Origin: Roseovarius sp. W115
Lineage (GTDB): Bacteria > Pseudomonadota > Alphaproteobacteria > Rhodobacterales > Rhodobacteraceae
Assembly: GCF_032842945.2 (NCBI RefSeq)
Contig: NZ_CP146606.1
Span: 3,228,501-3,292,500, forward strand
Direction of reading: 5' to 3'
DNA length: 64,000 nt
The translations under genes and the position numbers were made by a program. Under the pieces are notes generated by a model. The model made no database searches, was not told where the DNA came from, and saw only the letters and a program-made list of their open reading frames with translations. Below are positions 1,760 through 6,977 of this stretch, one piece after another; within the stretch, counting starts at the first letter, position 1, and each line of letters begins with the position of its first letter.

Positions 1760-2212
1760 ATGAGCGGCGAAACCGACCTGATCAAACTTTATTCAGCGCG
1801 CATTCTTGAGCTGGCGGCGGATATTCCGCATCACGGACGGCTTGATGCGCCAGATGCAACGGTCAAACGCCGGGCGCCGCTTTGCGGCTCCACCGTGACA
1901 GTTGATCTGACGACAGATGGCAACATGATCAAAGACTATGCCGCCGAGGTCAAAGCCTGCGCTTTGGGTCAGGCCGCAGCAAGTGTTGTGGGTGGCGCGA
2001 TCGTTGGCTGCACGCTGGATCAGGTCATCGAGGCGCGTGATGCGCTCAAAACCATGCTGAAATCGGATGGTCCCACGCCACCGGCCCCCTTCGACGGGCT
2101 AGAGGTTCTGCGTCCTGCGCGGGACTACAAGAACCGCCATGCTTCGATCCTGTTGACTTTGGAAGCGACGGTTGAGGCCATGCAAGACGCACGCGCCTCC
2201 GCTTGCAGTTAA
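1760..2212 (+). CDS. NifU/IscU-like iron-sulfur cluster assembly scaffold protein
   Basis: A 150-residue protein with the IscU/NifU N-terminal fold, which holds a transient Fe-S cluster for delivery to target proteins. The three cysteine positions expected of the family are visible: PLCGS near residue 42, [11 protein letters not shown] near 67, and a later Cys after the GAIVGC segment. The C-terminus, with a [10 protein letters not shown] stretch, is typical of the alphaproteobacterial version often annotated simply as Fe-S cluster assembly scaffold. It is divergent from hisI with 67 bases between. No iscS or suf genes are nearby, so its partner is unknown. Confidence 0.85.
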
Positions 2213-2245: not shown

Positions 2246-2277
2246 AAAAAAACCGCCGCGCGCTGTAATAGCGGCGG
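2246..2277 (-). terminator. rho-independent terminator downstream of the 40-aa peptide gene
   Basis: Read on the minus strand, a seven-base-pair GC-only stem (CCGCCGC at 2271-2277 against GCGGCGG at 2253-2259, 11-base loop) is followed directly by seven Ts (A7 at 2246-2252 on the plus strand). It lies about 145 bases after the stop of the small gene at 2421. It closes a transcription unit separate from the convergent scaffold gene. Confidence 0.75.
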
Positions 2278-2420
2278 CGGAAGGAATGCGGGTGTCCGGT
2301 GCGGGCTCAGTGGAAGAGGCAAGCAACTCTGAGCAACGAGGCAGTATCACGCAGGCGTCGATAAGGGGACAGGAGACGCGGGCGTTTGACGGGCACGGGA
2401 CGGTCGCAGGCAGATACGGT

Positions 2421-2543
2421 TTACAATAGACCAGGCAGATAGAGACCACCCACCAGTGTGACCATCAGCGCGGCAGCGCCGATGAAATCCCCCAACAGGG
2501 TTTCGCGAGACTCTTTGGCAGCGAGTTTGATCTGGTTCAGCAT
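2421..2543 (-). CDS. 40-residue membrane peptide with CtrA and LexA sites in its promoter
   Basis: This ORF is too short for usual gene callers. It starts with ATG at 2543 behind a GAGAGTGA ribosome site and ends with TAA. The N-terminal 17 residues are polar and mostly basic (MLNQIKLAAKESRETLL). Residues 18-40 form one hydrophobic helix (GDFIGAAALMVTLVGG, then LYLPGLL), so a single-span inner-membrane peptide with a cytoplasmic N-terminus is likely. Upstream on the same strand lie a perfect LexA box (2612-2626) and a perfect CtrA site (2655-2669). A terminator sits downstream at 2246-2277. The function is unknown. The size, topology and LexA box recall SidA, the 29-residue SOS-induced division inhibitor of Caulobacter, but I see no sequence evidence of homology. 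Confidence 0.7.
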   Translation of the reverse strand: MLNQIKLAAKESRETLLGDFIGAAALMVTLVGGLYLPGLL

Positions 2544-2611
2544 GGCGGTCACTCTCGATGTTTTGTTCTTTTTGTTGCTTATTTGTTCTCATTTTGAGGT
2601 GGTGTTGTAAA

Positions 2612-2626
2612 GAACTTTTTAAGAAC
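2612..2626 (-). promoter_or_regulatory. perfect alphaproteobacterial LexA (SOS) box
   Basis: The plus strand reads GAACTTTTTAAGAAC, which is GTTC-N7-GTTC on the minus strand, the exact LexA operator described for alphaproteobacteria. A further GAAC follows at 2633-2636 with six-base spacing, and a one-mismatch GTTG-N7-GTTC lies at 2574-2588. The box is 69 bases upstream of the small-gene ATG and 29 bases downstream of the CtrA site, a fitting place for a repressor that blocks transcription start. It is also near the recG 3' end, but recG is read away from it. Confidence 0.7.
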
Positions 2627-2654
2627 ATTTGTGAACTTAGCGAGAATAAATCTA

Positions 2655-2669
2655 TTAACCAATTGTTAA
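2655..2669 (-). promoter_or_regulatory. perfect CtrA binding site upstream of the 40-aa peptide gene
   Basis: TTAACCAATTGTTAA matches the CtrA consensus TTAA-N7-TTAA at all eight fixed positions. It lies in the intergenic space between recG and the small gene, upstream of the LexA box on the small gene's strand. Only three perfect full sites were found in the whole window by eye. Confidence 0.65.

Positions 2670-2712: not shown

Positions 2713-6977
<4,265 letters not shown>

Follow-up and report, generated by a model that had tools for sequence, protein, structure and literature searches.

The window analysed here is a stretch of 64,000 nucleotides from contig NZ_CP146606.1 of Roseovarius sp. 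W115, a member of the Rhodobacteraceae. A transcription unit in which a LexA operator is followed by a 40-codon ORF, some 140 further bases and an intrinsic terminator was located on its minus strand, between recG and a gene for an Fe-S scaffold protein. The elements named by the first-pass annotation, which was made from the sequence without database searches, were all in place on this strand and the unit is real. Two distances were off by one base: 28 bases, given as 29, lie between the CtrA-like and LexA boxes, and 68 bases, given as 69, between the LexA box and the ATG. The locus had also been described as a complete single-gene unit. The unit is present, but it also contains a conserved structured 3'UTR RNA, which occupies the stretch from the stop codon to the terminator and is the main feature that was missed. 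The features are as follows.

2713-4803, minus strand: recG (NCBIfam/Pfam), the conserved upstream neighbour
2655-2669, minus strand: CtrA-like box TTAACAATTGGTTAA, present in the W115 genome and not conserved
2633-2636, minus strand: extra GTTC half-site, 10 bases upstream of the LexA box
2612-2626, minus strand: LexA box GTTCTTAAAAAGTTC
2607-2611, minus strand: TTTAC immediately 3' of the LexA box, a candidate −35 element
2574-2588, minus strand: conserved second LexA-like site GAACAAATAAGCAAC, inverted and with one mismatch
2421-2543, minus strand: ORF for the 40-aa membrane peptide MLNQIKLAAKESRETLLGDFIGAAALMVTLVGGLYLPGLL (ATG at 2543, TAA at 2423-2421), recognised by purifying selection and profile matches
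2400-2417, minus strand: 5' single-stranded motif GUAUCUGCCUGCG (UUUCUGCCUGCG in the consensus), complementary to sites in the ftsZ leader
2281-2417, minus strand: conserved structured 3'UTR RNA, recognised by covariance model and folding energies
2246-2280, minus strand: intrinsic terminator, a GC hairpin of −20.8 kcal/mol followed by seven T
1760-2212, plus strand: SufU/NifU-N-like Fe-S scaffold gene (NCBIfam/Pfam), the convergent downstream neighbour

Orthologs were picked by peptide match and not by promoter, which gave 149 unique sequences out of 153 loci. Since these were mostly the better peptide matches, the weakest orthologs are under-sampled. Among the 68 long loci, recG was the upstream neighbour in 67 and the scaffold gene the downstream neighbour in 55, and a terminator was recognised by rule in 143 of the 149 orthologs. 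A promoter-pattern scan led to a Marinibacterium MAG (Rhodobacterales) with the identical order of recG-like ORF, operator, 40-aa ORF, RNA and scaffold-like ORF, the two neighbours being named by eye.

The 40-codon ORF is a real gene under purifying selection. Coding constraint, on which the earlier proposal depended, was confirmed by a dN of 0.088 and a dS of 0.474 for 13 independent pairs. Conservation of the ORF in relatives had been suggested as a check, and it was found. A search with the single sequence matched 35 of 60 genomes, W115 included; 34 of these were among the 36 genomes of its own genus, and the one match outside the genus in these 60 was not credible (E 0.69, in-frame stop). 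In the family sample the same kind of search matched 204 of 295 genomes at E ≤ 0.1, and a profile built from 48 orthologs matched 251 of the 295 at E ≤ 0.001. When 289 genomes of the class were searched with a profile, the only credible matches were in four family genomes and none lay beyond the family. A public protein collection held 11 relatives, ten nameless and one called 'hypothetical protein', and two members compared with Pfam and NCBIfam fell into no family, with a single chance-level Pfam match (E 0.14). The peptide is 40 aa long in 123 of the 149 orthologs, and T15, D19, G22, L26, L34 and P37 were invariant in the alignment of 48. The 19-residue hydropathy maximum reached at least 1.6, enough for one span, in 148/149 orthologs, and the structure model consisted of one helix from residue 2 to 39 (pLDDT 85); both point to a very short single-span membrane protein. 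An SD-like stretch preceded the ORF in 135/149 under a permissive rule.

The LexA box is real and its conservation as an operator is well supported. Of the 149 orthologs, 148 had an exact GTTC-N7-GTTC in the 250 bases before the ORF, as compared with 0.5 expected from dinucleotide shuffles. The bare pattern was not enriched in the whole genome (95, the reversed control giving 169), so that the argument is carried by conservation of the box and not by its mere presence. The operator extends beyond the box. The extra half-site and the TTTAC were each kept in 135 of 148 orthologs, and 142 of 148 had the GAACA of the second LexA-like site 38-39 bases past the first base of that box, where the site may overlap the −10 region. 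A conserved upstream frame (MRTK...) was rejected by eye; it was out of frame in many orthologs, and the DNA is conserved there as operator. In the W115 genome GTTC-N7-GTTC was also found upstream of lexA, uvrA, an ImuB-like polymerase gene and a uvrD/pcrA-type helicase gene, all named from their first 120 residues. Judged from sequence, the unit would be expected to respond to DNA damage. The lone ortholog without an exact box (L164) has an abnormal, extended frame of 75 aa, a possible case of decay and a useful natural mutant. Elsewhere, an AT-rich LexA-type box, GTTCCTTTTTTGTTC, was noticed (L218, G000 C1:3381967) before a PA0069-family radical SAM gene, which is a candidate SOS gene.

The ORF had been read as a checkpoint-type membrane peptide switched by cell-cycle state and by DNA damage. 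Control by LexA and the single helix bear out one part of this claim; the switching by cell-cycle state was not borne out, as discussed below for the CtrA-like box. An SOS (LexA)-controlled checkpoint-type single-span membrane peptide is supported as the best reading of the ORF. An action on the divisome is suggested by analogy only, from the form and regulation of the peptide.

The 3'UTR is a conserved structured RNA, and both the coding potential of the unit and the structure of its RNA are well supported. The RNA consists of a closing stem P1, a hairpin P2 with a CUGUCCC loop, a weak P3 around CUGCC, and a hairpin P4 with a UGCCU loop. After the stop codon the motifs follow each other in the order UUUCUGCCUGCG (in most orthologs), CUGUCCC, CUGCCUGUCC, UGCCUC and the terminator. 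CUGYC occurred 3.95 times per RNA core in 132 orthologs compared with 0.67 times in shuffles, and a closing stem and hairpins carrying the motifs in their loops were broadly common to 13 individual folds. An alignment made with MAFFT only misaligned the stems. A mini-stem test with shuffled flanks proved permissive in its control (0.61-0.79), and a covariance model took its place. This model (R1) was built from eight sequences, the W115 copy (L032) among them. Applied to 100 of the 149 orthologs, it recovered 78 loci at E ≤ 0.01, all where expected, while 22 fell short; the W115 RNA scored 57.6 bits (E 4e-9), being itself part of the model. All 27 of 27 pairs showed changes on both sides, and 92.8% of cells were paired as compared with 35-49% when the partners were slid. 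Since the structure had guided this alignment, folding energies served as a check that does not depend on it. The mean folding z was −2.6 for 135 sequences (91 below −2) and −2.7 for W115, against 0.03 for coding controls (n=67). GU and UG pairs numbered 100 and AC and CA 23, an excess that favours the mRNA-sense strand.

Whole-genome scans found the RNA in at least 88 of 198 family genomes, as a single copy in each. This number is a lower bound because the filters were strict and at most 16 candidates were scored per genome. In 190 genomes of the class the scan gave three matches, all within the family, so that the absence of the RNA outside the family holds at the sensitivity of a strict-filter scan. 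In all 75 genomes with peptide coordinates the RNA followed the ORF on its strand at a distance of 1-69 bases, the remaining 13 being those without coordinates. A search of Rfam 15 with positions 2100-2900 of the window gave nothing near the gathering score. The 3'UTRs of two orthologs (L067, L083) looked aberrant by eye, and these may be cases of decay that would serve as natural mutants. A possible RNA seed in the LPG codons of the ORF was dropped, CTGCCT being present there in 14 of 129 only.

Two candidate target leaders were taken from the literature on division control and tested, dcw/UpsM first and ftsZ second. Pairing was calculated with a custom-made ungapped model, and ftsZ start codons were called by rule. 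The ftsZ test comprised 66 of 76 leaders; ten were excluded as the RNA was missing, unmapped or beyond the length limits. The mean pairing energy in the 66 genomes was −8.5 kcal/mol. Coding windows gave −3.8, and shuffled leaders, a control that used every second genome, gave −4.6. The mean was also −3.8 for 150 other ribosome-site windows, used out of 183 and placed at predicted starts of which some are surely false, and 45 of the 66 ftsZ leaders fell into the best 5%. The mean percentile of ftsZ was 0.066-0.083 (0.066 over positions −70 to +30), and it was 0.10 in 16 genomes of the same genus, where the starts of G011 and G013 were mis-called; they are corrected in the family-wide set. The results indicate that complementarity of the RNA to the ribosome site of ftsZ exceeds background.

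On the RNA side the pairing contained a conserved motif in 61 of 66 genomes. The best site in the leader lay at −30 to −1 in 36 genomes. It was further upstream in the other 30, of which 27 had it between −64 and −45. Of the 76 family leaders, 71 carried GGCRGA at the ribosome site, as did 16 of 21 further ones (87/97 together), and outside the family it was present in 1 of 12 leaders; a mis-called start (G082) was scored as a miss among the further leaders. The element read CAGGCGGA in 69/76 and ACAGGCGGA in 41/76 family leaders, and a recognisable upstream site, GGCRG at −75 to −35, was present in only 34/76. Five family genomes without a peptide match (G136, G074, G117, G181 and G082) were examined for the element: G136 and G074 were without the exact element, two keep it and G082 is the mis-called one, a sample too small to judge by.

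For the upstream region of ftsZ, cognate pairs of RNA and leader had −6.63 and swapped pairs −5.80. Of 5000 permutations 0 reached so low a value, and 20 of 5000 did when the genus of W115 was cut to one genome. At the ribosome site the values were −8.07 and −7.87, with 451 of 5000 permutations as low, and 789 of 5000 with that genus reduced. These permutations do not correct for phylogeny. A weak cognate preference at the ribosome site is as expected for an invariant site, and it also fits a site that ftsZ keeps for another reason. Double changes were seen as well: UGCCUAUCC in the RNA went with GGAUAGGUA in the leader in two genomes, and UGCCUGUCCC with GGGACAGGCA in another. In W115 the pairing with ftsZ was weaker (−7.2 kcal/mol, 17th percentile) and the best site lay off the ribosome site. 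The ftsZ leaders of W115 and its sister have diverged and do not carry the ribosome-site element, and in both genomes a changed RNA motif, AUCUGCC, matches GGCAGAU of the ftsZ leader. The ftsZ mRNA is thus the predicted target of the RNA, less strongly so in W115 itself.

It is possible, though we consider it unlikely, that the RNA acts in trans chiefly on other mRNAs or on UpsM, and that CAGGCGGA in ftsZ is an ordinary translation signal. The near absence of cognate specificity at the ribosome site suits this explanation, and the preference of the upstream ftsZ region for the cognate RNA argues against it. Among other leaders, one lpxC-like leader of one genome of the same genus (L351, named by eye) had −10.6 over 11 RNAs and so outscored the ftsZ average. 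As regards UpsM, its strongly conserved CATACAGGCA matches the UGCCUGU motif of the RNA, and the best pairing fell there in 28 of 64 genomes. Accessible pairing with UpsM was nevertheless barely above background, with a mean percentile of 0.355 and 9 of 64 genomes in the best 10%, as compared with 0.066-0.083 for ftsZ; the cognate value was −5.61 and that with the UpsM of other genomes −5.56. This set contained at least one mis-picked leader (G003). On this weak enrichment the UpsM/dcw leader was rejected as the target and retained as a rival. The UpsM/dcw leader upstream of mraZ (L237, loci L226-L324) is in itself extremely conserved, including CATACAGGCA, AGACATCCCCCCAGG and GTGGCAGCAG. Another explanation dispenses with a trans target. 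TisB is a LexA-controlled small membrane peptide of comparable size, and the peptide described here might likewise be an SOS toxin of the TisB/Hok kind that depolarises the membrane, with the 3'UTR as a cis element for translation or stability. The position of the RNA right behind the ORF in every genome checked fits this. A fold-back of the leader onto the 3'UTR, of the hok/tisB type, was rejected, as pairing between the leader/start region and the 3'UTR showed no cognate preference (−24.1 kcal/mol cognate, −24.8 noncognate, 132 orthologs), and pairing in trans accords better with the results for ftsZ and with the repetition of CUGYC. We regard the toxin explanation as rather improbable, more so than a different trans target.

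Least probable by far is the original proposal of a checkpoint peptide timed jointly by CtrA and LexA, or linked to the release of gene transfer agents. Both boxes are perfect in W115, and the inputs of CtrA and LexA overlap in Dinoroseobacter shibae (PMC6473078). The CtrA box was, however, exact in 3 of the 149 orthologs only, where 0.5 were expected and up to 3 were obtained in 20 rounds of shuffling, and it was missing from the two closest relatives examined. The window by itself contains three CtrA boxes where 0.08 are expected. A conserved TTAA-N7-TTAA site, the mark of the CtrA regulon, was thus not found at this locus. Timing of the transcript by CtrA was rejected on these counts, and the CtrA-like box is probably due to chance or specific to the lineage. 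A role in gene transfer agent release was left unsupported: the locus adjoins recG in nearly all long loci, and the peptide had zero matches in 50,697 phage records.

We therefore return to the reading in which the locus encodes a LexA-repressed, SOS-induced transcript of the Rhodobacteraceae with a dual function, specifying a membrane peptide and a 3'UTR RNA that represses ftsZ; we put its probability at roughly 0.55. According to this reading, RecA-stimulated cleavage of LexA would free the promoter under the long conserved operator. The mRNA would be translated into the 40-aa single-helix peptide, a probable inner-membrane protein that, by analogy with SidA of Caulobacter, may delay cytokinesis. 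The 3'UTR folds into its multi-hairpin RNA, as the covariation shows, and would expose several CUGCCUG(U) seeds. Either as the full transcript or once processed, this RNA is predicted to pair with two places in the ftsZ leader, the ribosome site CAGGCGGA and a stretch about 45-64 bases before the start codon, and so to lower the synthesis of FtsZ. Division might then be arrested at two levels, the supply of FtsZ and the activity of the divisome, until LexA recovers. We give even odds to the wider claim that this one LexA-controlled transcript joins a peptide inhibitor to a new RNA family repressing ftsZ, that the element arose in the Rhodobacteraceae and is kept by them, and that RNA and leader co-evolve.

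The locus would provide a candidate division-stop gene in most of the sampled family genomes, together with an RNA that is absent from Rfam. The predicted pairing of the RNA with the ftsZ mRNA is specific and can be tested by mutation on both sides. In the open-access literature that was searched, the combination of an SOS peptide with an ftsZ RNA was not named for Rhodobacteraceae, and the accessible parts of that literature contained no description of a post-damage division stop in this family.

Several known systems resemble parts of the unit. SidA of Caulobacter crescentus is an SOS-induced division inhibitor of 29 aa in the inner membrane that acts on FtsW (PMC4211646). It shares with the peptide described here a LexA operator, a very short length, one membrane helix and an alphaproteobacterial host; unlike SidA, our peptide has 40 aa, invariant positions of its own, a place beside recG, a structured 3'UTR RNA and a distribution within a single family. 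In Rhodobacter sphaeroides, UdsC is an RpoHII-dependent RNA of 67 nt behind RSP_7527 that targets rpoHII (PMC9779115, PMC8625941), and StsR and UpsM form a cell-division RNA network in which StsR depends on RpoHI/HII (PMC8307010, PMC5089854). UdsC-type RNAs are likewise 3'UTR RNAs after a small hypothetical ORF, and StsR/UpsM show that the same family has a division RNA network, whereas control by LexA is not described for UdsC or StsR in the portions of these reports that are accessible. Identity with the known UTR RNAs of this species was rejected, as UdsC belongs to another gene.

Further parallels of the RNA are found in Klebsiella and E. coli. DinR of Klebsiella pneumoniae, an sRNA that is cut from the 3' end of the LexA-controlled dinI mRNA, blocks the ribosome site of ftsZ (PMC10907235). 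A LexA-controlled mRNA with an RNA at its 3' end is common to both, and a block of the ftsZ ribosome site is predicted here. The host protein of DinR is DinI and that of our RNA a membrane peptide, and the pairing region of DinR is described as variable and Klebsiella-specific while fold and motifs of our RNA are conserved throughout the family; homology between the two RNAs is not expected. DicB and DicF of the Qin prophage of E. coli are a small division-inhibiting protein and an ftsZ sRNA from one operon (PMC10448788, PMC9438474). As is predicted for our locus, a single transcript yields both. The prophage operon is under DicA and not LexA, DicB acts via MinC, and the gene order and the RNA differ from those of our unit. 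Like RNAs of the DinR/DicF type, our RNA lies downstream of an ORF, has a conserved structure and possesses its own terminator. If the dual-function reading is true, the unit would correspond to DicB/DicF on a chromosome and under SOS control, the use of protein plus RNA against division having been reached separately. As a proposal about mode of action, and not as a claim of membership in the SidA family, the unit may work as if the ideas of SidA, DinR and DicB/DicF had been joined on one short transcript.
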